NCBI GenBank assembly: GCA_031254295.1
Contig: JAIRUS010000031.1
Location: 1-42,874, forward strand
DNA length: 42,874 bases
Direction: 5' to 3'
Source: Streptococcaceae bacterium
Lineage (GTDB): Bacteria; Bacillota; Bacilli; Lactobacillales; Streptococcaceae
Part shown: positions 2,352 through 30,442 of the stretch, one piece after another
How positions within the stretch are numbered: the stretch's first letter is position 1
Layout of the letters: the number at the start of each line of letters is the position of its first letter
Notes under the pieces: model-generated
What the model was told of the DNA's origin: nothing
Seen by the model: only the letters and a program-made list of their open reading frames with translations
Database searches by the model: none
Position numbers and translations under genes: made by a program

Positions 2352-5027
2352 TTATTTTGCTTCAAACCATGTTTCGCCCACATTTTCTTCAACTTTAAGT
2401 GGTACAGAAAGTTGAATGGCAGTCTCCATTGTCATTTTCACAAGCTCTTGAACAACTTCAAGTTCTATTTTAGGCACATCGAGAATAATTTCATCATGCA
2501 CTTGCAGGAGTATTTTCGCTTTTAGTCCTTCTGATATAAGGGCTTTGTCAAGCTCTATCATTGCGATTTTTAAAATATCACCTGCCGAGCCTTGAATCGG
2601 CGCATTGATAGCTTGACGCTCGGCTGCTTGGCGGACTGCAAAATTACGCGCATTGATATCCGGTAACTTACGGCGGCGATTAAACATCGTGCTAACATAG
2701 CCGGTATTTTTTGCCTCGCGCTTGGTCGTCTCAATATAGTGAGCAATCTCAGGATAACGTTCAAAATATGTTCTGATAATTCGCTGAGCTTCTTTGTTTC
2801 CAATACTTAGGCGACGCGCTAGGCCATACTCTGTTTCCCCATAGGAAATTCCGAAGTTGACAGCCTTAGCCGAGCGACGGTCATTTGATGTTACATCTTC
2901 TGCTTTGGCTATGTCAAAGACACGCATTGCGGTAGCCGTATGAACATCTTCATCATTTTGAAAGGCCGAGATCAGATTAGGATCTTGGCTCATATGCGCA
3001 AGCACGCGCAATTCTACTTGTGAATAGTCAGAACTCAACAAAACGCTATCTTCACTTGGAACAAAGGCCTTACGAATTTTTCGGCCTTCTTCTAGTCGAA
3101 TCGGAATATTTTGGAGATTTGGCTCAACACTTGACAAGCGACCAGTTTGTGTCAAATCTTGCACATAACGGGTATGAATTTTTCCATCTTCTGCAATTTG
3201 GGGTATTAAGCCTTGAACATAGGTCGACTGTACCTTATTTACCTGTCGATATTCTAGAATCTTTGCAACAATATCATGCTCTGCTGCAAGACCTTCGAGT
3301 ACGTCTACAGCTGTTGAATAACCTGTCTTCGTCTTTTTTCCATGCGGAAGTTCAAGCTTTTCAAAAAGGATTTCTCCAAGCTGTTTTGGCGAATTAATAT
3401 TAAAATCTATCCCTGCCAACTCATAGATTTCTTTCGTCAAGGTTGAGAGTTTTAGCTTATTTTCATCACCAATCTGGTAAAGTGTCTGAGCTTTGACTGA
3501 GATACCTGTGATTTCCATTTTCGCTAAGACTTCTGCTAATGGCAGTTCCATATCTGTCAAAAGTTTATACTGATCATTTTCTTCAAGCGCCGTAATCAAC
3601 GGCGCTTTTGTTTCAGCTAAAACCTTAATCTTGCGGGCAAGGTGTGGAAATAATTCCTCATCAAAAGGTACTGCACGTTTTACACCTTTCCCATAGAGAA
3701 TTTCATCACTCACAAGATATTTCTGACTGTACAGTTCTGCAATTGTCGAAATTTTATTGTCCTCAGTTGTAGAAACCAAATATTTGGCCAGCATACTGTC
3801 AAAGCTAGCTGGTTTTAGTTCGATCCCTAAACGGTTGAGGACTACACGATTTTTTTTGTAATCATAGGTATTTTCTGGAAAGTTAAAGTCTTTCAGAAGC
3901 TCGATATTTTTAGAGACATATTGCTTCTCTGCATTTCCCCAAGCAAACGCAACAATTTGCTCACGATGATAGTTCTCATTGAGTAGCTCAATATAGAAGA
4001 AATCATCTGGCTTGACCTGTGGATTTTCATTGACTTCTTCAAAATTTACAGAAATCTCTTCTTTCGAAATTTCAGCTTTGGCAACTGAAAAGTCTGTGTA
4101 TTGTACTTGTTCTTTAGGGTTGACTTCTAACTTACCTGACAACAACTGCTCTTTAAATTGACGGAAGCCAAGCTCGTCATAAAACTTAACAAGTTCGTCT
4201 TTTTTCGGACCATTATAGGCAATATTATCCAAGCCAATCTCAATCGGAGCTTGAACATTAATTGTAGCCAAAGTACGTGCCAAATAAGCCTGTTCCTTAT
4301 CCGCAATGATGTTCTCTTTTAGCTTAGAGGGCTTCATCTCGTCCACATGGGCATAAAGGCCATCAAGATGTTCATACTCGGACAAAAGTTTTAAAGCTGT
4401 TTTTTCGCCCACCTTTGTGATACCTGGATAATTATCCGAGTTATCGCCCATCATCGCTTTCAGGTCGATAAATTGGTCTGGCGTTAGGCCCATCTTGGCT
4501 TTTAGATAAGCTGGTGTAAAGGCCTCAAACTCAGCCACGCCTTTCTTAGAAATCTCAACTGTCGTATTCGCATCTGTCAGCTGAATCATGTCCTTGTCAC
4601 CTGTAACAATCGTGACAGACCAGTCTCCGTTTTCAGGAAGCTCAGCCATCTTATCCAGCGTTCCGATAATGTCGTCGGCTTCATAATTTACAAGCTCATA
4701 ATGCGCAATACCCAGTTTTTCAATCATTTCCTTGATGAAAGGCATTTGCTCACGAAATTCATCTGGTGTCTTCGCCCGTCCACCTTTATAATCCGCAAAC
4801 ATCTCCGTACGAAATGTTGTCTTCCCAGCATCAAAAGCCACCAGTACATGCGTTGGGGCTATACGTTGTAAAAGATTTTGCAACATCAGGTGGAAACCAT
4901 AAATCGCATTGGTGTGCAAACCGCTTGGCGACTTAAATCTATCAATCTGGTTATAAAGTGCAAAAAAGGCTCTAAAAGCGACGCTCGAACCATCTATTAA
5001 GAGTAATTTTTTCTGTGTAGTTGACAT
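2352..5027 (-). CDS. polA: DNA polymerase I
   Basis: Family A polymerase of 891 aa acting in Okazaki-fragment maturation and excision repair. The N-terminal 5' nuclease domain (about 1-290) contains the metal-site motif GDNSDNYPGI. The polymerase domain shows motif A (DYSQVELRVLAH), motif B (RRSAKAVNFGISYG) and motif C (QVHDEI, near residue 845). In the 3'-5' exonuclease domain the usual DxE site is replaced by FFYIELL, so proofreading is probably lost, as known for streptococcal Pol I. There is no Shine-Dalgarno. A TGATATAAT extended -10 box ends 6 nt before the ATG, suggesting a leaderless transcript that starts in the gap after the ABC exporter gene. Confidence 0.97.
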   Translation of the reverse strand: MSTTQKKLLLIDGSSVAFRAFFALYNQIDRFKSPSGLHTNAIYGFHLMLQNLLQRIAPTHVLVAFDAGKTTFRTEMFADYKGGRAKTPDEFREQMPFIKEMIEKLGIAHYELVNYEADDIIGTLDKMAELPENGDWSVTIVTGDKDMIQLTDANTTVEISKKGVAEFEAFTPAYLKAKMGLTPDQFIDLKAMMGDNSDNYPGITKVGEKTALKLLSEYEHLDGLYAHVDEMKPSKLKENIIADKEQAYLARTLATINVQAPIEIGLDNIAYNGPKKDELVKFYDELGFRQFKEQLLSGKLEVNPKEQVQYTDFSVAKAEISKEEISVNFEEVNENPQVKPDDFFYIELLNENYHREQIVAFAWGNAEKQYVSKNIELLKDFNFPENTYDYKKNRVVLNRLGIELKPASFDSMLAKYLVSTTEDNKISTIAELYSQKYLVSDEILYGKGVKRAVPFDEELFPHLARKIKVLAETKAPLITALEENDQYKLLTDMELPLAEVLAKMEITGISVKAQTLYQIGDENKLKLSTLTKEIYELAGIDFNINSPKQLGEILFEKLELPHGKKTKTGYSTAVDVLEGLAAEHDIVAKILEYRQVNKVQSTYVQGLIPQIAEDGKIHTRYVQDLTQTGRLSSVEPNLQNIPIRLEEGRKIRKAFVPSEDSVLLSSDYSQVELRVLAHMSQDPNLISAFQNDEDVHTATAMRVFDIAKAEDVTSNDRRSAKAVNFGISYGETEYGLARRLSIGNKEAQRIIRTYFERYPEIAHYIETTKREAKNTGYVSTMFNRRRKLPDINARNFAVRQAAERQAINAPIQGSAGDILKIAMIELDKALISEGLKAKILLQVHDEIILDVPKIELEVVQELVKMTMETAIQLSVPLKVEENVGETWFEAK

Positions 5028-5042
5028 AGTTTGATTATATCA
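5028..5042 (-). promoter_or_regulatory. Extended -10 promoter abutting polA start
   Basis: TGATATAAT on the minus strand has its TATAAT at 5039-5034, exactly 6 nt before the ATG at 5027. No purine-rich ribosome site lies between them. Transcription would start at or within a base or two of the start codon. Confidence 0.6.
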
Positions 5043-5082
5043 GATTTCTGCTTTTCGAGTTTTTATATCTGCTTATTTGACT

Positions 5083-6918
5083 TTATTGAGAATAAAATTT
5101 CGGCTCCGTCAAATTTATATCAAACTCATCATTTTTATCGACGCTCTCCAAAGTAAGTTGCTCAGCAACATATTCAGCATATAGTTTATGATTTTTAAGG
5201 AGGTCGCTATGGTTTCCTGATCCCGTAATTTTGCCATTTTCGATAAAATATATATTGTCAGCCCCCACTATTGTAGATAATCTATGCGCAATAACTAGTG
5301 TTATCCTGCCTTTCATCAGCGATTTCAACGCAAGCTGTACCATAGCTTCCGACTCTGAATCAAGCGACGCTGTTGCCTCATCTAATAAAAGAATTTTAGG
5401 ATTTCTCAAGAATGCACGAGCAATTGCCAAACGTTGTCGTTGTCCTCCCGATATCTTTGCACCACGCTCACCAACTTTTGTATTTAATTGTTCTGGCATA
5501 TTTTTAACAAATTCTTCTGCAAATGACATATTTAACACTTCCCAAAGTTTTTGGTCATCATAATCTTTATTAAGACCGAAAATTAAATTTTCACGAATAC
5601 TGCCATCAATTATTGCCGATTCCTGACTTACAAAGCCAATTTGCTTACGCCAATTGGCTAATGAAATTTTACTAATCTCTATATTTCCTATTTTAATTTC
5701 TCCAAGTGATGGTTCATAAAATCTTTCCAAGAGATTAAAAATAGTCGATTTACCGCTACCTGATGGCCCTACAAAGGCAGTAACTGTATCAAGATAGGAT
5801 ATAAAGGATATATTTTTCAAGATTAATTTTTTTCCAACGTAACTAAAACTCAAATTTTCAACCGATAACGAATTATATTCTATATTATTAGAAATACCTA
5901 GATTTAAAACTTCTTGCTTTTCCTCCAATAGATTTGAAATATATAAAGTTGAGCCTAATGTTTTGGCATAACTTGATAGCAATGTTGATAACATGGGAAC
6001 AGCCGAAATAAGATTCATAAGATAAATCATCATTCCTGTAAGGGCTCCAACTGTTAGTTGACCTGCTACAACTCGTTTCATTCCATAAGCGAGAACTCCG
6101 AACATCATAAGCATCATGCTCAACATCATAATAGGAGAAATAATACCGTCAAGTTTTGCTTCCTTAATTCCAATTTTATACAACTGCTTACTTTTATGAT
6201 TAATCTGTTGAGTAATCTCTGTTTCTCCGTTTGAAGCCTTGACTAGACGAATTTCTGATAGATAGCCTGTCACTCTCCCTTGGAACTCTGCCAATATATT
6301 TTGCCTCTCAAACCCAATTTTTTTACCGATAAATGTAAGAGGAATTGTAACTGAAAGCCCGATTGGTACTACAATTATCATAGCAAGAGTTAAGTGCCAG
6401 TCTAATAAAAACATCATAAAAATTGAACCTACAAGTAAAAGACAACTAGAAATTGCCTGTGGTATTACATTTGAAAGGAAATCTTTTATCTGTACGGTGT
6501 CATTTACAAGTCTAGACGATATTTCGCCTGTTTTCACATCATCAAAATATCTAATTCTTAAATGAACAATTTTATCCCATAGATTCTCTCGAAGTTTTCT
6601 AACCGCATCTTCTCCAAAGATACCTAATGAAATACTTGATAAGGTTGTAAGGAATGCTATAAGTAGATAAAGAGCTATCACGATACTCACTCTGCTTATA
6701 TCAACACCATTTTTGATATTATTTATCAAAGGAACAACTAGTTTAGGTATTTGTAGATTAGTTAAAGCACTCAAGATACTCATGATTAATCCTATAAAAA
6801 ATAATAGATATCTAGGCCTAGCATTTTTAATTAACTTAAAAAAAGTATAACTTAATTTTTTTCTCTCCTGTTTTTGTCTTAGATTTTCTTTTGATGAAAA
6901 AACTGTCCGATTCTTCAT
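5083..6918 (-). CDS. ABC exporter, fused membrane and ATPase domains
   Basis: A 611-aa half-transporter of the LmrA/MsbA type. An N-terminal six-helix membrane domain (about 35-330) is followed by an ATPase domain with Walker A GPSGSGKST (near 383), signature SGGQRQR (near 490) and Walker B ILLLDEATASLD (near 506). There is no N-terminal C39 peptidase domain; that activity is encoded separately at 8342-8761. It has a good ribosome site (AGGAGATG) and follows the upstream membrane gene by 4 nt. As last gene of the bacteriocin-like operon it probably exports the peptide, or removes it as self-protection. Substrate is inferred from context only. Confidence 0.88.
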   Translation of the reverse strand: MKNRTVFSSKENLRQKQERKKLSYTFFKLIKNARPRYLLFFIGLIMSILSALTNLQIPKLVVPLINNIKNGVDISRVSIVIALYLLIAFLTTLSSISLGIFGEDAVRKLRENLWDKIVHLRIRYFDDVKTGEISSRLVNDTVQIKDFLSNVIPQAISSCLLLVGSIFMMFLLDWHLTLAMIIVVPIGLSVTIPLTFIGKKIGFERQNILAEFQGRVTGYLSEIRLVKASNGETEITQQINHKSKQLYKIGIKEAKLDGIISPIMMLSMMLMMFGVLAYGMKRVVAGQLTVGALTGMMIYLMNLISAVPMLSTLLSSYAKTLGSTLYISNLLEEKQEVLNLGISNNIEYNSLSVENLSFSYVGKKLILKNISFISYLDTVTAFVGPSGSGKSTIFNLLERFYEPSLGEIKIGNIEISKISLANWRKQIGFVSQESAIIDGSIRENLIFGLNKDYDDQKLWEVLNMSFAEEFVKNMPEQLNTKVGERGAKISGGQRQRLAIARAFLRNPKILLLDEATASLDSESEAMVQLALKSLMKGRITLVIAHRLSTIVGADNIYFIENGKITGSGNHSDLLKNHKLYAEYVAEQLTLESVDKNDEFDINLTEPKFYSQ

Positions 6919-6922
6919 TTTT

Positions 6923-7519
6923 TCATCTCCTATACAAAGTTCTTTTCAATCTGTGCTTCTGATAAAAATAAAATAAAATCCCCATAAATAAACTTACAAA
7001 TACTTGGGACAAAAGAAAATTCATTTTCAACTCAATCGTGAAACCTTTAAACAAATAAATTGATTTAAGAGGAGACAGAATAATCCGCACTACTATCCAA
7101 CTGACAAAAAAGATAATTACTTGAAAAAAATATATATAAAATAAACGTGTGATAAAAAATTCTTGTAATACATAATCAATTTTTTCAATTATCTTTATTC
7201 TTGCTTTTATATTTTGACTAGCTAACAGAACTTCTCTTACGACATAATTTTTATAATAGAAAAAAAGATAAATTGATAAACTGGTAAATAACAATTCCAA
7301 TGAGATTCTAATCCCCCCTATAAAGAATGCTGGATCTCCTAGTGAAAAAGGCGAATTAGAAGTCATTCGTAATTCTGCAAAAGTAAAGAGATTTACCATA
7401 TAATAAAGGAAATTTAAAATAAAAAATAAAACAATCGAAATTATACTTTCACGACTATAGCGACCAAAATCTCTTTTCAAAAATTTACACGCCCCTAAAA
7501 ATAAATATTTATACTTCAT
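6923..7519 (-). CDS. Multi-spanning membrane protein of the bacteriocin locus
   Basis: A 198-aa, very hydrophobic protein with about four membrane segments (near 25-50, 65-88, 118-145 and 168-188) and a basic C-terminal tail. Its start overlaps the end of the ABC ATPase gene by 11 nt, so it is probably the membrane partner of that ATPase, although it is shorter than usual ABC permeases. No family was recognised. A role as a dedicated immunity protein is the main alternative. Confidence 0.75.
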   Translation of the reverse strand: MKYKYLFLGACKFLKRDFGRYSRESIISIVLFFILNFLYYMVNLFTFAELRMTSNSPFSLGDPAFFIGGIRISLELLFTSLSIYLFFYYKNYVVREVLLASQNIKARIKIIEKIDYVLQEFFITRLFYIYFFQVIIFFVSWIVVRIILSPLKSIYLFKGFTIELKMNFLLSQVFVSLFMGILFYFYQKHRLKRTLYRR

Positions 7520-8147
7520 GCAAAGTTCCTCTTATTTTCCCGTCTGATAAATATAATTCACGATGTGGAATTTTTTTAATAAGAGAAAAGTCATGTATTG
7601 CAATAAGAACAATAGTTGTAGGCTCTTTTTTTATATAGGCTTCTAAGGTTTTGAGAACATTTTGAGAACTAGCCGGATCTAAATTACTAGTTGGTTCATC
7701 TAAGAGAATAATTTTCGGCTTTTTTAAGAGTCCTTGAGCTAAATAGACACGGTCTGCTTCTCCTCCCGAAATATCATCCGGAAAATGAGATAGTATATCC
7801 TGAATCCCAAATTCTTTGCTTATCTCTTGAATCAACTGATGAATTACGGATAAGTTTCTTCCTTGAAATTCTAAATAATATGCTAAATTTTCATAAATTG
7901 TCTTATCTGAAATTAATTGTGTTGGTTTTTCCAGAAAAAAAAGCTCCATCTTCTCCCTTAATCCATTACCTATAATAACTTCTCCACTATCTGGTAATAA
8001 TTGTTTCGCAATCAATTTCATGAGTGTCGATTTTCCTGAACCACTCTTTCCTGTCAAATAAACGAATTCACCTGCCATGATTTTAAAACTTATGTTATCT
8101 AAAATCTTATCGTCATAAGAATAACTAACTTTTTCAAAACTAATCAT
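7509..8147 (-). CDS. ABC transporter ATP-binding protein
   Basis: A stand-alone 212-aa ATPase. Walker A is G33-T41 (GKSGSGKST), the signature is SGGEADR near 127, Walker B IILLDEPTSNLD near 146-157, and the switch histidine lies in AIHDFS. It overlaps the small membrane gene upstream by 8 nt and the membrane gene downstream by 11 nt, so the three are translationally coupled. In bacteriocin clusters such an ATPase with a separate membrane subunit commonly gives self-immunity or assists export. The specific role here is inferred. Confidence 0.88.
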   Translation of the reverse strand: MISFEKVSYSYDDKILDNISFKIMAGEFVYLTGKSGSGKSTLMKLIAKQLLPDSGEVIIGNGLREKMELFFLEKPTQLISDKTIYENLAYYLEFQGRNLSVIHQLIQEISKEFGIQDILSHFPDDISGGEADRVYLAQGLLKKPKIILLDEPTSNLDPASSQNVLKTLEAYIKKEPTTIVLIAIHDFSLIKKIPHRELYLSDGKIRGTLHEV

Positions 8148-8355
8148 CTTTTAGCCCCTCATGTTCATGTGGAACAATCATTGCAATTATGGATAAAAAA
8201 CTCAAGCAAATGATTGATCCTAAAAAAAGATAAATTGATATTTTTTGGAATGCTGTAAAGGCATCTATCTCTTTATAAAAAACGATTAGCAAAAGAATCG
8301 CACTAAGTGGGAATATAAAATTTAACATTTTCATTGCAATACTAATAATCTTCAT
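8140..8355 (-). CDS. Small two-helix membrane protein
   Basis: A 71-aa protein with two membrane helices (about 9-27 and 40-62) and a charged His/Glu-rich C terminus. It overlaps the C39 peptidase gene upstream by 14 nt and the ATPase gene downstream by 8 nt. Size and position suggest an immunity protein or a membrane anchor for the detached peptidase. No family was recognised. Confidence 0.7.
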   Translation of the reverse strand: MKIISIAMKMLNFIFPLSAILLLIVFYKEIDAFTAFQKISIYLFLGSIICLSFLSIIAMIVPHEHEGLKDD

Positions 8356-8761
8356 TACTAACTCCTAGCTTTCTAAAATTGATAAGATACCCCGTCCATT
8401 TTGATTGAAACTCCGCAATTGTGTAAACTTTAAAATCACTTGCTGGATCGTAACTTAAAACTTGCTTTTTCGATATTTCAAAAATAACTTCATAATGCAT
8501 TCCAAACTCTTTTTCAAAATGAGCGATTACCGGAAGTTTAATTTCCTCAGCTAGGATTGCTTTCTCCAACTCATTGAAATCTCCTTTCATAGCATGCGCT
8601 ACCAAACCATTTTTCTCACTTTCAATAACAATATCGTACAATGATAAGGGAGCCTTATATTTTGAAATTCTAGATTTAACATCATAGAATTTCAAAATTG
8701 TTTTTAGGCAAGCTTCTCCACAATCAAACTCATTTCTTTGCCTATATCCTTTATATTTCAT
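8342..8761 (-). CDS. Free-standing C39 peptidase, bacteriocin leader protease
   Basis: A 139-aa protein that corresponds to just the peptidase domain of bacteriocin-processing exporters. The expected catalytic triad is visible: Cys14 in the motif QRNEFDCGEAC (with oxyanion Gln8), His89 (GMHYEVIF) and Asp105 (SYDPASD). C39 peptidases cut precursors after a double-glycine-type site during export. Here the domain is detached from its transporter, which has no peptidase domain of its own. The ribosome site (GGAGAT) overlaps the T-run of the upstream hairpin (8771-8797), so expression probably depends on readthrough. Confidence 0.9.
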   Translation of the reverse strand: MKYKGYRQRNEFDCGEACLKTILKFYDVKSRISKYKAPLSLYDIVIESEKNGLVAHAMKGDFNELEKAILAEEIKLPVIAHFEKEFGMHYEVIFEISKKQVLSYDPASDFKVYTIAEFQSKWTGYLINFRKLGVSNEDY

Positions 8762-8770
8762 AATATCTCC

Positions 8771-8797
8771 AAAAAAAGCTCATCCTTTTGGACGAGC
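8771..8797 (-). terminator. Attenuating terminator between peptide and peptidase genes
   Basis: GGACGAGC/GCTCATCC form an 8-bp stem with a 4-nt loop, followed by seven U on the minus strand. It sits 20 bp after the peptide stop and 10 bp before the peptidase start. This is the usual way to keep the peptide mRNA in excess over the processing genes. Confidence 0.85.
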
Positions 8798-8816
8798 TAA
8801 AACTTCACCTACTTGG

Positions 8817-8957
8817 TTATAAACCAATAGTGTAGCTGATAAACTTGGACGTGACGTGACGTGCATAACTGCCACTATCCCATCCGTGGGCACCACAAAG
8901 CCAACATGTCCAGCCAGCTTTAACCGCTTTTGCTTCATTCACCGTAATGACTTTCAT
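8817..8957 (-). CDS. Bacteriocin-like peptide precursor, 46 aa
   Basis: The 46-aa ORF has a strong ribosome site (AGGAGGAATTC) and heads the C39/ABC operon. The first 15 residues (MKVITVNEAKAVKAG) look like a leader. Cutting after Ala-Gly would release a 31-residue, aromatic and histidine-containing core starting WTCWLCGAHGWDSGSYARH, with a CxxC pair. The leader lacks the usual LSxxEL...GG consensus. A C-G-A-x-x-x-D-S-G arrangement recalls glycocin F-type peptides, but no glycosyltransferase is nearby. Three CACGT repeats lie inside the coding sequence near 8853-8870. An upstream in-frame ATG would add 16 residues but lacks a ribosome site. The operon position makes a bacteriocin precursor likely; its class is unknown. 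Confidence 0.78.
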   Translation of the reverse strand: MKVITVNEAKAVKAGWTCWLCGAHGWDSGSYARHVTSKFISYTIGL

Positions 8958-8986
8958 GATGAATTCCTCCTGTTGTTTGTAAATGC

Positions 8987-9010
8987 ATTCCATGCACAAT
9001 TGCATGGAAT
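8987..9010. promoter_or_regulatory. Perfect 10-bp inverted repeat upstream of the peptide gene
   Basis: ATTCCATGCA and TGCATGGAAT surround a 4-nt centre about 30 bp before the peptide start. It could be an operator or an RNA hairpin in the leader. A second inverted repeat, TAGAAGTAT (9010-9018) with ATACTTCTA (9093-9101), brackets the presumed promoter region. No consensus -35/-10 pair was found between them, so activation by a regulator is plausible. Confidence 0.5.
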
Positions 9011-9137
9011 AGAAGTATTAACACTTTTAATCCAATATGTTATCGCTTCCAAAAACAGTATATATCTTTTTGATTTTTAAATCAAGGATTTGATACTTCT
9101 ATACTCTATTTATTTCACATTCATATATTCTAGTTGC

Positions 9138-23449: not shown

Positions 23450-23572
23450 TTACGACTGCTCAATTTGCTTCGTTTGCCAGACGTACTCACGCTGATAAAA
23501 GTCAACATCGTATTTGTCTGCAAAAAGTGTTTTGAGTGGAAATACCTTGCTATCTACTGTTTTCTGTGTCAT
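23450..23572 (-). pseudogene. N-terminal fragment of a DUF262 (GmrS-like) gene
   Basis: A 40-codon frame starting with an ATGA overlap on the FRG gene. It contains IPLK-type and YDVDFYQREYVWQTKQIEQ, the conserved N-terminal motif of DUF262 proteins (GmrSD-type modification-dependent restriction, where this domain is a nucleotide-dependent nuclease). Intact proteins are several hundred residues long; this one stops right after the motif, beside the hairpin at 23407-23444. It is a truncated gene at the edge of the defence island. Confidence 0.7.
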
Positions 23573-24780
23573 AAATTTTCTTCCTTTATTTTTTGCCTAG
23601 CATTAATCTGGTCTCGAAAATTATCTCTTTCATATCTTTGACGCTCCATCACATACTCCGCTGTATTATCTAAATCTGAGAATATAAATTCACGGTTGAT
23701 ACCAATATAATCCAGCTCTCTCAAAATTTGTGACTTAGCATTTGAGCTAATAATGAATTTCTTTTCAAATGGAATTTTTTGGGTATACGGTTCCATAAGC
23801 GGATATACACTCAACTGATAAATAAAAGCAGCCTGTTGATTTTTGAGTCTATCAAATATAATATTTGGTTTATACACTAATGTTGGAAAAGGTGGAAAAT
23901 CTATCTGCTTTGAAGCAATATCAAATAAGTCAAAAACAAGTATTAAACGAATAAGATTATTCTTTACTATTTTTGAGGGATTTCTGTCTACATTTGGTGA
24001 AATCTTTATCGTTTTGACTTGTTCCAAAGAAAATAGTTGGCCATCAAAATCAGCAATAGTTTCGGCTGTTAATTCTTTGGAAATATACTCTTCAATTAAG
24101 GCATTAATCTCATCAAATTTAAAATTGCTCTGAAATTTCTTTAGACTAAAAACATCTACCTCTTTTTTTGTACCAACGCTAGCTAAAACTCTCTTCCATC
24201 CTTGTAAAATAAATTTATTAAAGTCTTTTTTATCTGGAAATTTCGACATACTGCTAAATCCTGACATACTGTAAGTAATTAGTGAGATAATAGTGTCTTG
24301 GATTATTCTTTCCGTCCCTCCATAGTTGGATTGTAAAATATTGGAAGTAAGGGAATCCATTAATTTCCTGATATCAAGTCTAGTATTTACTCCCACATAT
24401 TCTTCCAGGATTCCAGGAAAATCCAAAGTCTTCCGTTTATCCAGACAATAAATAATCCCTGTTTCTTCTTCATCTGAAACTGCAAAATAAAGTGATACTA
24501 AAGGATTTTCAGAAATGTCCAAAAGCTCCGTTGCCAAACCATGATGTTGAGATAACGCTGTAAAATTTTCTTTTTCAATCTCAGAAAGATGAATACCTAT
24601 TTTCGAAAAATAATCTGATTTCAATTCATCTAGCTTGTAATAAAATCCTTTTTTATTTTTTCTAAATCCCTTTGCTACATTTGCTGTTTCCCTATTATCT
24701 CTTAATAATAATCTCCAGTTTTCCTTAATTTATCTATCTCTTCAATGAATTGAGATAAACTATTTATTGCTATTGTCATA
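23569..24780 (-). pseudogene. FRG-domain protein gene, frameshifted near its start
   Basis: The long frame (to 23569) contains the FRG-domain core LSQHHGLATELLDISENPLVSLYFA and then about 300 residues without recognised motifs. A proper start (ATG 24780, ribosome site AAGGAG) lies in another frame and encodes about 25 residues ending LRKTGDYY before a stop. Shifting by -1 at about 24705 restores one protein of about 403 aa. The region does not look like a classic programmed slip site, so it is probably a mutated gene, although translation from an alternative start near 24610 (TTG) is possible. FRG domains occur in many phage-defence loci; their activity is not established. Confidence 0.68.
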
Positions 24781-24798
24781 GCATTCTCCTTAGTTTTT

Positions 24799-26403
24799 TT
24801 ATTTAACATTAGGGTTCCAACTAAATTCATAATTCCCAATTCTTTGCTTTTTTAGATTTCCTCGTAAAGCTATATCTTTTATCGGAAAATGTTTATCTTT
24901 ATCATATTGTACAAGCCCAATAAAATTTTCGTTTGTTTCAAATTGTTCTTTATGTTTACCACGCCTATACTTCTTTTTGTATATAGATAAAAAGACAATA
25001 TCTGCTTCCATTTTCCCATACTTAACTTTGTCTTTGGGATTTCCAAAATTTTCTGTAGTTACTAACTTTGAAACAGCCTCAATAACCATTTTTTCTAATT
25101 GCTTCTTTTTAAGAGACTCCTCGATATATATATCCCCAATCATTCTTTTTTTATCTTCTAAACTAGAATCATATATATCCGTAATTGTATAATCATTGCC
25201 CTTAATATCTGAAAATCCCTTAAATGAATCTAAAGTTTCATTTCTCACTTCCGTATTTGGCTCAAACATCATACAACCACCATCAGCAATGATCTTACTT
25301 ACTGCCTGCTCAAGACTTATTTTTTCTGAAATTAACTCTTTAATAATATCTACATTTATTAATAGAAATGAATTCATTGTCCTCGAAGCATAAAAGCTAA
25401 CATAGATAGACCTAACAAAATCATTATCAAATAATTTATATCCATAAATCGCTACATACAGCGCAAAGCCAAGTCTTTCATTCACAGATAAATTAGGGTG
25501 AGTAAATTCAAAATTGAGTTGCTGATCATCTTCATTGCCTAATATATTAATCGTCTCAATAGATTCACAACTATTTTCAAGCGTCGAAAAAGCTAAACGA
25601 ATAACATCTTTATCCAAATTTCGCATTCCAACAGAATTAATTTTCTTTTCAAATTCAGCTATATGCCTAGCGCATAAGCTTAGCCAGCCATAGAGCATAG
25701 CGGTAAGACAATCATAAAATTTTTGAATTTCATCTTTTAACTGAAAATAACTAAACTCCGTTGTAACAAATTCTGTTACTTTATTAACAGTTTCAGCATA
25801 AGTGAGCATTAACTTATCTTGCCCATAAACTACTTTTCCATGAGCCATCGCATTCCTAAGACTATGATTTACTATTTCAATCAGTTTAGCATAGCTAATT
25901 GTACGTTTTCCCCCAGATAAATAATTAATCTTCTGAGTTAAAGAAACATTATTTTGCTCTGTTTGCTCAGTCTTTTCTTGAAAACAGATAAATAAATCTA
26001 AAATATCACTATATGAATAATTTAATAAATCACTGAAAATAGGAACTGTAAAGGCTTGAGCTTTTATATCTTCCCTTTCCTGAAATTTTTCTAATAAATC
26101 TAGCCTTGAACTAATTGACTCCAGTGTTTTTATTGTAGAAACTAGTTTAGAGAATTTTGAAACAAAGAGTTCTGCTATTTCACCACTTGACAAATACTGC
26201 TCATAATTTTCAAATATTCCCCTTATTTCATTTTGGTAGTCAACATCAAAATTTTTCATTTGATTATCTACATAAAATTTATTCAAAAGCGGATAAAGCA
26301 ATCTAGGGATTTCTGCTTGGAACAGCTTCTCTATCTTTTCTGTCCCTGCTGCTTCCTTATTATTTTCCCACCATACGATAAAATCAACCAATTCCTTATT
26401 CAT
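24799..26403 (-). CDS. 534-aa protein with HEPN-like motif in defence operon
   Basis: A 534-aa, largely helical, soluble protein. The segment IEIVNHSLRNAMAHGKVVYG has an R-x4-H motif (R183-H188) within LRNAxAHG, the typical catalytic-site pattern of HEPN ribonucleases and HEPN-like proteins. No other domain is recognised. The C terminus is basic with a beta-rich look. It overlaps the 147-aa membrane gene by 4 nt and precedes the FRG gene by 18 nt, so it is part of one operon. An RNase effector role in abortive infection is a reasonable hypothesis, not shown. Confidence 0.72.
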   Translation of the reverse strand: MNKELVDFIVWWENNKEAAGTEKIEKLFQAEIPRLLYPLLNKFYVDNQMKNFDVDYQNEIRGIFENYEQYLSSGEIAELFVSKFSKLVSTIKTLESISSRLDLLEKFQEREDIKAQAFTVPIFSDLLNYSYSDILDLFICFQEKTEQTEQNNVSLTQKINYLSGGKRTISYAKLIEIVNHSLRNAMAHGKVVYGQDKLMLTYAETVNKVTEFVTTEFSYFQLKDEIQKFYDCLTAMLYGWLSLCARHIAEFEKKINSVGMRNLDKDVIRLAFSTLENSCESIETINILGNEDDQQLNFEFTHPNLSVNERLGFALYVAIYGYKLFDNDFVRSIYVSFYASRTMNSFLLINVDIIKELISEKISLEQAVSKIIADGGCMMFEPNTEVRNETLDSFKGFSDIKGNDYTITDIYDSSLEDKKRMIGDIYIEESLKKKQLEKMVIEAVSKLVTTENFGNPKDKVKYGKMEADIVFLSIYKKKYRRGKHKEQFETNENFIGLVQYDKDKHFPIKDIALRGNLKKQRIGNYEFSWNPNVK

Positions 26404-26843
26404 TTTTTTACTTTTTCTTTCTTCTTATACGTTTGAGTAAACCCAAATACAATCAATGCTAATAAAAATATAATAAATCCACAGAAAACTAACAGCAATA
26501 CAGACGAAAAAATTCCTGTAGTGTGATTCACCGACCATATTAAACCATACGAAATTACTCCACCAATAATTGCACTTAAAAATACTGCACCCAAACTAAT
26601 TGGATCAATTTCTTTTTCAAGATTTGAAATCTCTTTTTCCATGAGATTTTCTATCCTCTTCCTAAGCTCAGGGTTTTCAACTAACGTTGAATAAATTTCT
26701 GTGTATTTGGATAATGTTCCTAATCGGGATTTATTATTTTTTATCACTCCACTTAAAAATTTAATTAAGCCTGCTAGAAATGTAAATATTGATACTCCTA
26801 ATGCTGAAATTAGCGGCATATTTTTTGATAACCAATCTATCAT
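26400..26843 (-). CDS. 147-aa membrane protein of the defence operon
   Basis: Three probable membrane segments (about 8-30, 84-105 and 112-135) surround a cytoplasmic, charged helical middle (ENPELRKRIENLMEKEISNLEKE). The C-terminal tail is lysine-rich. It resembles in outline the two-helix effector proteins of defence systems, but no family was recognised. It starts 9 nt after the 286-aa gene and overlaps the HEPN-motif gene. Confidence 0.68.
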   Translation of the reverse strand: MIDWLSKNMPLISALGVSIFTFLAGLIKFLSGVIKNNKSRLGTLSKYTEIYSTLVENPELRKRIENLMEKEISNLEKEIDPISLGAVFLSAIIGGVISYGLIWSVNHTTGIFSSVLLLVFCGFIIFLLALIVFGFTQTYKKKEKVKK

Positions 26844-26852
26844 TATTTTCTC

Positions 26853-27713
26853 TCACAATACTTTATTATCTTGATTCTTTAGCGCCCGTTCTCTAATTGC
26901 TTCATCATCAATTTTAAAATTCCACATTTCATTTATTTCTGCTTTCATTTCAGAGGAATTCAAATTGCTAAATTTGTCATTTTCAAATCGTTCAAGAAAT
27001 ATATCATTTGCAGCCATATATTCCTGACACATATCGTGTAATTCGATAGTACTAGTTAAAACAAGTTGAGCCAAAGTGACAATGGTCCGATTAATATTTT
27101 TCCGTTGATTCATTTCCGAAATTGGAGAGTTAGGCTGCGCAAATAGAATGATAGAATCCAAACTAAAATAATAGCTGTTAAATCTTTCAATCTTTTTATT
27201 GTAAAAATGACCTGCATTTTTAATTCCAACAATTCCTGAGATGAGTTCTTGAGATACCCCATCGATCCCTTGATAAATGCCTTCCAGATGAATTTGATTT
27301 AACATTTCAAAATTTGTGTGTACATCATTTAACTCACCTTGAGAATCTTTTTGAAAATACGGACTTCGAATCAAGTTTTCCAATAGTTTCTTGTTCATAT
27401 CTAGTTGAATTCTCATAGTTACAATTACACTATAGTGCTGATTTCTTTGTTTTCTCTGCTCACGAAATATGCTTAAATATTTCTCTTTATCATATTTTTC
27501 AACTTCTATTGCTACATCTTCTTTTCGGCGCCTATCTAGCTCATTAAAATCTTGCTGCCTATATTTATCTGTATTGTGCTTACTCCATAATGCAATTCCT
27601 ATTGCAATTATTATTGCAATGAACGTTAAAATGAACATTGCAATATCGAATGGACGAACTTCAGATATAGATTTTATGGCTTTAATTATTTCTTCAAATT
27701 GTTTTTCGTTCAT
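26853..27713 (-). CDS. 286-aa membrane-anchored protein of the defence operon
   Basis: A single N-terminal membrane helix (about 24-43) is followed by a long charged helical region (about 45-130, rich in Lys, Glu, Arg, Gln) and a helical C-terminal domain. The start overlaps the stop of the restriction-modification gene by 4 nt with its own GAGGAG site, so the two are linked in translation. No family recognised. A sensor or scaffold at the membrane is possible. Confidence 0.68.
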   Translation of the reverse strand: MNEKQFEEIIKAIKSISEVRPFDIAMFILTFIAIIIAIGIALWSKHNTDKYRQQDFNELDRRRKEDVAIEVEKYDKEKYLSIFREQRKQRNQHYSVIVTMRIQLDMNKKLLENLIRSPYFQKDSQGELNDVHTNFEMLNQIHLEGIYQGIDGVSQELISGIVGIKNAGHFYNKKIERFNSYYFSLDSIILFAQPNSPISEMNQRKNINRTIVTLAQLVLTSTIELHDMCQEYMAANDIFLERFENDKFSNLNSSEMKAEINEMWNFKIDDEAIRERALKNQDNKVL

Positions 27714-30442
27714 TTCTCCTCCTCATACAATCTCATCAACTCAGCCACACGCTCTTCTTTGGTCGGGTTTTTCAGGTTGTAGAGGCTGTCCACGAGTTTA
27801 TCGTTTTCTTGGTGGGCGCGGCGGAGGTCGGTGGGCATGAGGAGTGGGTCGTACATGTCGGCGAGGGAGTTGCCTTGGGCGCTGTAGTTTTCGCGAATTT
27901 TGAGGATTTTATCAGCGCTGACAGTAAGTTTTTCTTTGTCTGTGTCGGCCAAGTCTGGGACGACAAAGGTATTATAGACGAGGGTGTTCGAGTAGCGGTA
28001 ACGTCCTTCAAGTTTTCCGCCAACGGTGTCTAGCCAGGCCATGTGGAGTTTGGATTGGAGGAGGGCGAAGAGGTCAAGGCTTGCAGGAACTTGTAAATGT
28101 GGCGCCGCAACTATCGTTGGGTATTCTAATAAAGCCATCGGCACATAATTTCGTGCTTCTGATGAAACCTGCGGTATCATGATGAATTGACCGTATAACA
28201 CATGATCTTGCTGATAAAGCGTTGGAGTATCCGAATCCGCCAGAGTAGCTTTGTCCTTACTCGCTAAACGATTTTCGCGCACTGCTTGAACACGTTCACG
28301 AATAACTGAATTTTGTAAAATTTTCAACGGAGCATCTTTGAGATAAAGAGCATAGCGTTTTTTGTTATTTAGCATATCTTGTGCCGATAAATAAACATGG
28401 AAAAGCTCTGCCAGCTCAGGATATTTTTTAATTGTCTCTTCAAATTCTTCAGGTGTAAACAAGAAATTCTGTCCATCTGTCAATTTAGAACCCCAGCCCA
28501 TTTCGGGCAATCCAGATATTTGTTTGTTTGCAGATTTGACAAAAACAGTCGGAGCAGGTAATAAGTTTTGGTTGATATTCTGCACCTCTACTTTGACAGC
28601 TTCTCCCTTTATATCTTCATACTCAAAAATATTCTTAGTAGTTTTATCGAATAGTGCAAAGCCAATGATAACAACAAAAACAGCCGCCCCGTTATTGTCC
28701 CATTTGAATGTCTGGTGCGCAAAGTTAATTTTCACATTAAGTTTCTCAAACAAAGGTTGCCAAATGTCTGTTGCTTGTGTTCCTTGTACCACAGAATTTG
28801 TGGAAACAAGCGTAGCCTGTAAGTTCGGGAACTTTTGCATGAGTTCCGCAGCTTTGAAATACCAACCTGAAACAAAATCTAATGCTTTAGCTTTAGTATA
28901 AGTCTTAGTTACGGCGACCAAACTTGCTTTTTGCTCTGATGAAGAAACACGATTCCCGATAAACGGCGGATTCCCCAGCACAAAGTCAATCTTGTCAGCG
29001 CTGACAAATTCCTCTGTGTCAAATACTTCCAACCAGTCCACTGCCAGTGCGTCGGCTTTGGCGATGTTGCCGCCTGTGTGCAGGGGCAAGCGGACGTAGT
29101 AGCTGCCAAAGAGGCTGCTGGCTTCGAGGTTCATGATGTGGTCCATCAGCCAGAGGCCGAGGCGCGCGATGCTGGTGGCGTAGGCGTTGATTTCAATGCC
29201 GTAAAACTGGCTGACTTCGACTTTGAGGAGGTCGGAGATTTCGAGCAGGGAGATTTGCCCTTGGACGAGGCTGTCGATGACGTCGTGCTCGAGCCGTCGG
29301 AGTTCGCGGTAAGCCACGATGAGGAAGTTACCTGAGCCGCAGGCTGGATCTAGGAATTTCAGGCTGGCGAGTTTTCTGTGAAAGTCTTGGAGGGCTTCTT
29401 CGCGCTTGGTCTTTCTTGTCTTAATTTGCTCAAACTCTGCGCGGAGATCGTCCATGAACAGGCTGTCCGTCACTTTTAGGATATTTTTCTCACTCGTATA
29501 GTGGGCGCCCAGATTGTGGCGTTTTTCTTTATCCATTGCCCCTTCGAACATGGAGCCAAAAATGACTGGGCTAATGTTGCGCCAGTTCAGAGTCGATATT
29601 TCAAGGAGATTGTCGCGGATTTCTTGGGTCAGCGCAAGGCCTGATAGCTGCGGAAGTTTGAACAGGCCACCATTGATATAGGGAAATTCAGCCAGTAAGC
29701 CAGTTTGAAAGCGCGCGGTCTCTGGTGTATCAAGGACTTGGAAGAGGACTGACAGCTGGTTGACGAGGTCTGAGCCGTCATCAAGAGTCTGGCTCTGGAT
29801 ATATTCCTGAAAGAGGCCATTTCTGAAAATCTGGGTGTCGTCCGCAAAGAGACAGAAAACCAATCGTGTCATGAGGAGATCGGCGTAGTTACGCGGATAG
29901 TTGGCCGAGAGGAGCTGACTGTGAATCGTCTCGAGCAGCATCGCCGCCTTGGCATTGACAGGGTCGATGTTATCTGTTGTAAGACGGGCTTTTTTCTGCC
30001 CAAGGAGGAAGTCAAAATCGTCCAGATGGGCGAGTAGGTCAACCGTCGCAAAGTCTATCGTCTCCTGACTTTCTAGCTTGATCAGACGAATCGTCTCAAA
30101 GTTACAGAGCATGAGATAGTTTGGCTTGTCTCGGTCGTCAAGGTGCTGATAATAGCGCTCCGCCTGACTGAGCGGGCTCGTCGTATGCCCTGGCTCGAGC
30201 TTGTCAAAGTCGATACCACGCCCTTTCATCTCACAAAGCAAAACGCCCGGCCAGAGATAGTCAATCCGTCTGGGCGAGCCATTGACATTGACCTGATACT
30301 CAAAGCCGACACGCGCCTGCGCAGGGTTGAAAATGTCAATGAAATCACGCATGAACTGCTGGGCTTCCTGTGTCTCTTTGGCATCGTCTTTGTGGTTTTG
30401 GATAAAGGCCAATGCCTTGTTTTTCATGACTTCTGTTATCAT
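27710..30442 (-). CDS. Type IIL restriction-modification enzyme, MmeI-like
   Basis: A 910-aa single-chain enzyme, close to MmeI in length. The N-terminal PD-(D/E)xK nuclease site is D61-x9-E71-M-K73 (spacing as in MmeI). A helical spacer follows, then an N6-adenine methyltransferase domain with motif I DPACGSGNF (near 363) and motif IV GNPPF (near 488). The C-terminal part should hold the target recognition domain. The enzyme would methylate one strand of an asymmetric site and cut about two helical turns away. Base composition is mosaic: the ends are GC-rich, while codons about 500-784 (28090-28940) are AT-rich, suggesting exchange of the recognition part. A promoter lies at 30478-30506. Confidence 0.9.
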   Translation of the reverse strand: MITEVMKNKALAFIQNHKDDAKETQEAQQFMRDFIDIFNPAQARVGFEYQVNVNGSPRRIDYLWPGVLLCEMKGRGIDFDKLEPGHTTSPLSQAERYYQHLDDRDKPNYLMLCNFETIRLIKLESQETIDFATVDLLAHLDDFDFLLGQKKARLTTDNIDPVNAKAAMLLETIHSQLLSANYPRNYADLLMTRLVFCLFADDTQIFRNGLFQEYIQSQTLDDGSDLVNQLSVLFQVLDTPETARFQTGLLAEFPYINGGLFKLPQLSGLALTQEIRDNLLEISTLNWRNISPVIFGSMFEGAMDKEKRHNLGAHYTSEKNILKVTDSLFMDDLRAEFEQIKTRKTKREEALQDFHRKLASLKFLDPACGSGNFLIVAYRELRRLEHDVIDSLVQGQISLLEISDLLKVEVSQFYGIEINAYATSIARLGLWLMDHIMNLEASSLFGSYYVRLPLHTGGNIAKADALAVDWLEVFDTEEFVSADKIDFVLGNPPFIGNRVSSSEQKASLVAVTKTYTKAKALDFVSGWYFKAAELMQKFPNLQATLVSTNSVVQGTQATDIWQPLFEKLNVKINFAHQTFKWDNNGAAVFVVIIGFALFDKTTKNIFEYEDIKGEAVKVEVQNINQNLLPAPTVFVKSANKQISGLPEMGWGSKLTDGQNFLFTPEEFEETIKKYPELAELFHVYLSAQDMLNNKKRYALYLKDAPLKILQNSVIRERVQAVRENRLASKDKATLADSDTPTLYQQDHVLYGQFIMIPQVSSEARNYVPMALLEYPTIVAAPHLQVPASLDLFALLQSKLHMAWLDTVGGKLEGRYRYSNTLVYNTFVVPDLADTDKEKLTVSADKILKIRENYSAQGNSLADMYDPLLMPTDLRRAHQENDKLVDSLYNLKNPTKEERVAELMRLYEEEK

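Follow-up and report, generated by a model that had tools for sequence, protein, structure and literature searches.

In a review of ribosomally synthesized and post-translationally modified peptide (RiPP) systems, C39 peptidases are described as part of peptidase-containing ATP-binding cassette (ABC) transporters (PCATs) (PMC10885120), and stand-alone C39 peptidases are on record as FapD of the Pseudomonas amyloid system and NapP of Neisseria (PMC11798529). Here we describe a locus in the genome of a Streptococcaceae bacterium (G000; 2.12 Mb, 96% complete, of Streptococcaceae type) that encodes a 46-amino-acid (aa) precursor peptide, a free-standing C39 peptidase and an ABC exporter without a peptidase domain. 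It lies on contig JAIRUS010000031.1, a 42.9-kb stretch that was analysed as a whole and is called the window below. We propose, giving the idea an even chance, that the product of the operon is a small class II-type bacteriocin, probably unmodified, which is exported and whose 31-residue core resembles a miniature C2H2 zinc finger.

Six genes on the minus strand lie between polA and a gene for a DUF975 protein, and the list of genes and the coordinates are as given in the initial annotation. The precursor gene and a terminator are followed by the genes for the C39 peptidase, a 71-aa protein with two transmembrane (TM) helices, an ATPase, a 198-aa membrane protein and the 611-aa exporter (Table 1). 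From the C39 gene onwards the junctions measure -14, -8, -11 and +4 nt, and the ribosome binding site of the exporter gene overlaps the stop codon of the preceding FtsX-like gene. As genes two to six thus overlap or are at most 4 nt apart, they form an operon and not a chance arrangement. All its reading frames are intact.

Residues Q8, C14, H89 and D105 of the C39 peptidase align with the catalytic columns of about 25 fused PCAT C39 domains; the triad C14/H89/D105 had been pointed out before and is indeed intact, with Q8 in addition. Matches in the PDB are the peptidase domains of PCAT1-type bacteriocin transporters and of ComA. At E<=1e-6 this peptidase is the only C39 match of the host genome, and no relative of the protein was found in viral contigs. 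That a detached C39 peptidase serves an exporter lacking such a domain, as suggested in the initial annotation, is well supported by the operon structure, the intact active site and the lack of any other host C39 match at that threshold, and we infer that the two proteins act as partners.

The exporter consists of ABC_membrane and ABC_tran domains only, in line with the earlier description of a complete exporter. It gives 458 bits against BmrA and 348 bits over 243 aa against PDB entry 1mv5_A, which is titled only as a multidrug ABC transporter and which we take to be the nucleotide-binding domain (NBD) of lactococcal LmrA. Against LmrA, BmrA and P-glycoprotein types it scores far above any PCAT, and in a tree it falls into the LmrA clade with a support of 100/99, apart from the PCAT cores, so that an origin as the split-off half of a PCAT is ruled out. 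LmrA-type exporters of related genomes are 50-55% identical to it. In genomes G018 and G040 the LmrA-type gene adjoins apparent copper-ATPase and copper-transport genes and not a peptide cluster; the window exporter is therefore not at that place. A second LmrA was not found in the host genome, where no other LmrA-like match exceeds 32% identity, and the window exporter may be a moved or divergent LmrA ortholog.

The precursor has a leader of the double-glycine type. This corrects the initial annotation, according to which the double-glycine consensus was lacking: positions -12, -8, -4 and -1 are kept and only -2 deviates, with Ala for Gly, which is atypical as GG, GA or GS is expected at -2/-1. 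The leader of one relative (L004) also ends in Ala-Gly and those of the other family members in Gly-Gly. With the leader pattern kept and Ala-Gly or Gly-Gly at the same place in relatives, cleavage would naturally be placed after Gly15. The core contains C18-x2-C21-x12-H34 and thereby has the C-x(2-4)-C-x12-H spacing of C2H2 zinc fingers; the conserved His 12 residues past the second Cys had gone unmentioned before.

Homologues that share the leader and core pattern were found in Enterococcus gallinarum NBRC 100675, Enterococcus ratti DSM 15687 and a Streptococcaceae metagenome-assembled genome, and a scan of small open reading frames (ORFs) adjoining C39 transporters added two further members (L065 and L073) to this group, which we call sub-family A. 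Comparison of the E. gallinarum gene with that of E. ratti gave a dN of 0.044, a dS of 0.576 and a dN/dS of 0.08, indicating that the family is under purifying selection in this Enterococcus pair. Since homologues adjoin C39 transporters in other genera and dN is far below dS, the window peptide is more than a chance ORF. W16, C18, C21, G25 and H34 are invariant in the core of sub-family A (motif W-x-C-x2(4)-C-x12-H), and all five other full-length members (L004, L009, L010, L065 and L073) carry a fourth His or Cys 6-9 residues after the H34 position. The pattern W.C.{2,4}C.{12}H occurs in 3 of the 4202 distinct small ORFs of the scanned stretches, each time next to a C39 gene; as these stretches include the loci where L065 and L073 were found, the count shows specificity and is not an independent discovery. 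Neither the window peptide nor its relatives match a family in Pfam or NCBIfam, plasmid and viral collections contained no relative of the peptides, and a class-level search returned the window only; the peptide family looks undescribed. A close relative of the enterococcal peptide in another genome (L003/L005, G010:C9, near 4598-4473) has an in-frame TAA at codon 35, past which the frame continues into the conserved tail; this gene looks recently truncated.

A sister group, sub-family B, comprises peptides of 56-60 aa with the motif W-x-C-x2-C-x3-S-x2-H-x4-TA-x3-A-x2-H-x3-Y followed by a His, and was seen in 18 of the 196 Streptococcaceae genomes that were sampled. Profile comparison relates the two groups with a probability of 96% (E 4e-9), the alignment spanning 27 columns from the leader and the CxxC. 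Not every member of sub-family B keeps the full ligand set (e.g. L153). In four members (L104, L107, L108 and L113) a Sec-like signal and a linker replace the double-glycine leader, the linker ahead of the core being His/Asp-rich in three of them (e.g. ATHDHDHDDADHKD and KSDHDEEEHEK), and no C39 gene was noticed alongside in the stretches viewed (L146, L147). Such Sec-type members argue for an extracellular role of the core, by whichever route it is exported.

An AlphaFold model of the window peptide, for which the input was four sequences only, has a leader helix, a short hairpin with the CxxC and a helix from residue 28 to 44 that carries H34 (mean pLDDT 64). The E. gallinarum peptide is predicted to have a similar beta-beta-helix arrangement (pLDDT 74), and the structure matches of its model are mostly zinc-binding proteins, mixed with unrelated ones. 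These data are compatible with a core that would bind zinc, and a place of the peptide in an exported, zinc-finger-like family is better supported than the "new bacteriocin type" of the initial annotation, which is plausible. No relevant paper on zinc-finger or metal-binding bacteriocins was found in the open-access literature.

In the mechanism that we propose the terminator between the precursor gene and those of the machinery would lead to an excess of precursor. The free C39 peptidase would recognise the leader in the cytoplasm through I-12, E-8 and V-4 and cut after Ala-Gly, and the LmrA-type exporter would move the core out, two polypeptides thus doing the job of one PCAT. The CxxC of the core would sit on a beta hairpin and the His on the following helix, and the exported core would act outside the cell as a zinc-finger-like bacteriocin that kills other bacteria, with the FtsE/FtsX-like ABC pair, the 71-aa two-TM protein or both protecting the producer.

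Several observations weigh against this proposal. The window copy is the sole full-length member of sub-family A without the fourth ligand, and a three-ligand site would bind zinc more weakly. Foldseek places zinc fingers, of the C2H2 or another type, in nearly all top ranks of the PDB matches to the window model, but every E value is above 1 and non-significant, and VIA-align gave Z scores of up to 3.5, likewise non-significant (Miz-1 finger 10, 1.4 Å over 31 residues). As the CxxC...H pattern itself may steer AlphaFold, the structural result is consistent with a zinc finger and not proof of one. No bacteriocin model of Pfam or NCBIfam matches the window peptide or its relatives above the cut-off, the matches of the relatives being sub-threshold only, and the window cluster contains no regulator gene. 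The intact split arrangement was seen once, in the window. The only other split locus (L065, in G040) has a sub-family A peptide, an ATPase, a membrane protein, a free C39 peptidase and an LmrA-type exporter (NBD 58% identical) and is decayed: its exporter gene is frameshifted, the catalytic Asp of its C39 is replaced by Cys and its Walker A motif is damaged by a Cys. G040 holds an intact LmrA besides this locus exporter.

Wherever the surroundings of a sub-family A peptide were read, it lies with a C39 domain and an ATPase/membrane protein pair, and in most relatives, including those of E. gallinarum and E. ratti, the C39 domain is fused in an ordinary PCAT. The initial annotation had raised the objection that these genes might always serve another export task. 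This was not seen, as in relatives the peptide is still accompanied by the ATPase, the FtsX-like protein, a C39 and an exporter; the detachment of the peptidase, however, is not shared by most of them. With most relatives fused and the sole other split locus decayed, the split is a rare variant and not the rule. A detached C39 as the rule for the peptide family was rejected, nearly all C39 matches in 147 Streptococcaceae genomes being in frames of ~700 aa; of the other short C39 frames, L063 is a broken PCAT, L064 a fragment at a contig end and L065 the decayed locus. The C39 tree does not decide between a single and separate origins of the two splits (support 35). In one E. ratti locus (L025 of G279, 4383-6528) the PCAT adjoining an intact peptide gene lies in two frames of 296 and 415 aa and is apparently frameshifted.

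The ATPase has FtsE as its best NCBIfam model (162 bits, below the cut-off of that model), and its homologues adjoining peptide relatives are 35-41% identical. The 198-aa membrane protein encoded next to it matches no family, FtsX included; of seven aligned positional counterparts, three match FtsX (PF02687; best E 3.9e-6). An orphan ATPase/FtsX-like pair without peptide or C39 gene occurs in a further genome (L066, G043), as expected of immunity genes, which often stand alone. The 71-aa protein has the two hydrophobic helices noted before, and no sequence homologue of it was found; a gene for a 65-aa two-TM protein follows the PCAT gene of one related locus (L006), and enterococcal clusters encode a lipoprotein. 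An immunity role would suit both the pair and the 71-aa protein.

More widely, and more tentatively, a possibility to which we give less than even credence, Streptococcaceae and Enterococcaceae may share an export family of single zinc-finger domains that are weapons or metal effectors and leave by C39 transporters or Sec, of which the window would hold a case with the C39 peptidase uncoupled and re-partnered with an LmrA-type drug exporter. The conserved zinc-finger spacing would also suit a metal-handling peptide, the core being a secreted, zincophore-like zinc carrier or scavenger that is retrieved by some importer, and the His/Asp-rich linkers before the same core in Sec-signal sister peptides point the same way. 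We regard this as unlikely, however, as the Sec-type genes viewed adjoin no recognisable zinc transporters, an AdcR/ZitR-type operator was not seen upstream on inspection by eye, FtsE/FtsX-type pairs are not importers, and the diversity and patchy distribution of the peptides fit bacteriocins better. Many two-Cys class II bacteriocins have a disulfide, and the core could be closed in this way after export, with zinc uninvolved and the His conserved for target binding; CxxC motifs are redox-prone outside the cell and the window peptide misses the fourth ligand. Against this stand the invariance of the His in sub-family A, the fourth His or Cys in all full-length members but that of the window, and the lack of a thiol oxidoreductase gene in the operon, and we consider a disulfide-closed bacteriocin rather improbable.

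Pheromones such as ComC/BlpC are another cargo of C39 exporters, and an Rgg-like regulator gene, identified by eye, precedes the sister peptide in two loci (L068 and L070), as would fit a C39-processed signal that is sensed by neighbours and is no toxin. We hold this to be very unlikely for the window, whose cluster has neither a histidine kinase nor a regulator gene, whose 31-aa folded core exceeds the typical length of a pheromone, and whose FtsEX-like and two-TM partners would be left unexplained. There is equally little to be said for an exporter that is the housekeeping LmrA of the host and happens to follow a decaying island, a highly improbable case: its place in the LmrA clade and the absence of another host LmrA-like match above 32% identity agree with this, but only 4 nt separate the exporter gene from the FtsX-like gene, whose stop codon overlaps the ribosome site of the exporter, the LmrA-type genes of G018 and G040 lie beside apparent copper-ATPase genes and not in such a cluster, G040 has an intact LmrA as well as the locus exporter, and every frame of the window operon is intact.

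As to control elements, the terminator after the peptide gene was confirmed; it is probably partial, setting a high ratio of peptide to machinery. An 11-bp palindrome in the untranslated 5' leader of the peptide gene (9011-8986), absent from the initial annotation, is a possible operator or RNA hairpin. Promoter prediction 5' of the peptide gene was no better than chance. A tRNA-Leu call inside the exporter gene (5308-5391) looks spurious, and comparison of the polA side with relatives for an empty site was uninformative because this flank differs in every relative.

Table 1. Features of the peptide-export locus (window positions).
Feature	Position	Strand	Evidence and details
LmrA/BmrA-type ABC exporter, 611 aa, without peptidase domain	5083..6918	-	Pfam: ABC_membrane and ABC_tran only
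FtsX-like membrane protein, 198 aa, partner of the ATPase	6923..7519	-	positional counterparts match FtsX
FtsE/LolD-like ABC ATPase, 212 aa	7509..8147	-	intact Walker A, signature and Walker B motifs
Candidate immunity protein, 71 aa, with two TM helices	8140..8355	-	two hydrophobic helices
Free-standing C39 peptidase, 139 aa	8342..8761	-	Pfam PF03412 (Peptidase_C39), E 4.2e-21
Intrinsic (rho-independent) terminator between peptide and C39 genes	8777..8798	-	9 bp, -14.4 kcal/mol, z -3.7
46-aa precursor, MKVITVNEAKAVKAG/WTCWLCGAHGWDSGSYARHVTSKFISYTIGL	8817..8957 (coding 8957-8820, stop 8819-8817)	-	ribosome binding site AGGAGG at 8971-8966, 8 nt upstream
Core, 31 aa, 3504 Da, charge about +0.9	8820..8912	-	alignment of sub-family A
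Leader, 15 aa, double-glycine type, Ala at -2	8913..8957	-	I-12, E-8, V-4, A-2, G-1
Palindrome/hairpin, 11 bp, perfect	8986..9011	-	-14.4 kcal/mol, z -4.39, 0/200 shuffles as good; no U-run after it

Other small peptides were seen in the genomes compared. Several Enterococcus-family loci (L011-L013, L017, L018 and L029-L035) contain 27-aa precursors (e.g. MKKMTRTEKTEVKAGWVCVLWGAVCWG) repeated in tandem, in up to five to seven near-identical copies, with a short two-Cys core and a leader that ends in Ala-Gly before Trp, like that of the window peptide; next to them are encoded an ABC ATPase and either one or two proteins resembling thioredoxin. Three tandem peptides of 66-79 aa with double-glycine leaders and alternating beta-prone sequence (L081, G067:C136, 3160-3880; e.g. 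NIKISGSNNSVNFYK) adjoin a PCAT whose C39 domain has Asn for the catalytic Asp. Elsewhere on the minus strand of the window are a candidate defence island (23569-30442), in which three unassigned genes (534, 147 and 286 aa) lie between those for a 910-aa type IIG restriction-modification protein (PADLOC E 9e-287) and a 351-aa PDC-S15-like protein (E 3e-28), and, downstream of polA, eight clustered tRNA genes (640-2141).

If the core binds zinc and kills, current bacteriocin models would be missing a zinc-finger bacteriocin family that has close members in E. gallinarum and E. ratti and a sister family in roughly one tenth of the sampled Streptococcaceae genomes. The split C39/LmrA arrangement, if true, would be a natural two-part PCAT, useful for studying communication between protease and pump, and a case of a multidrug-type exporter recruited to peptide secretion.

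With PCAT and ABC-transporter maturation and secretion (AMS) exporters such as PCAT1, ComA and LahT the locus shares the catalytic residues of C39, a substrate with a double-glycine-like leader and an exporter of transmembrane domain and NBD; it differs in that three genes lie between the peptidase gene and a separate exporter gene and in that the exporter is of the LmrA lineage and no PCAT core. This exporter belongs to the sequence clade of LmrA and BmrA, but is encoded inside a peptide-export operon. FapD and NapP likewise are separate C39 polypeptides that handle double-glycine peptides, but work with an outer-membrane FapF-type channel in Gram-negative bacteria, whereas the window represents a single-membrane host with an ABC exporter. 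The leader pattern, small size, dedicated export and putative immunity genes are those of class II double-glycine bacteriocins, from which the window peptide is set apart by the zinc-finger spacing of its core and the lack of a class II model match above the cut-off. FtsEX, LolD and MacB-type ABC pairs combine an FtsE-like ATPase with an FtsX-like membrane protein; here the membrane proteins, FtsX-like by the matches of three counterparts, are short (198-222 aa), lie in a peptide cluster and probably serve immunity. The C-x2-C-x12-H motif and the predicted beta-beta-helix recall C2H2 zinc fingers such as Miz-1 finger 10, ZFY and the C2HR finger of Nizp1; in contrast to these, the window peptide is an exported single unit in which the fourth ligand is missing, and the resemblance is probably convergent.

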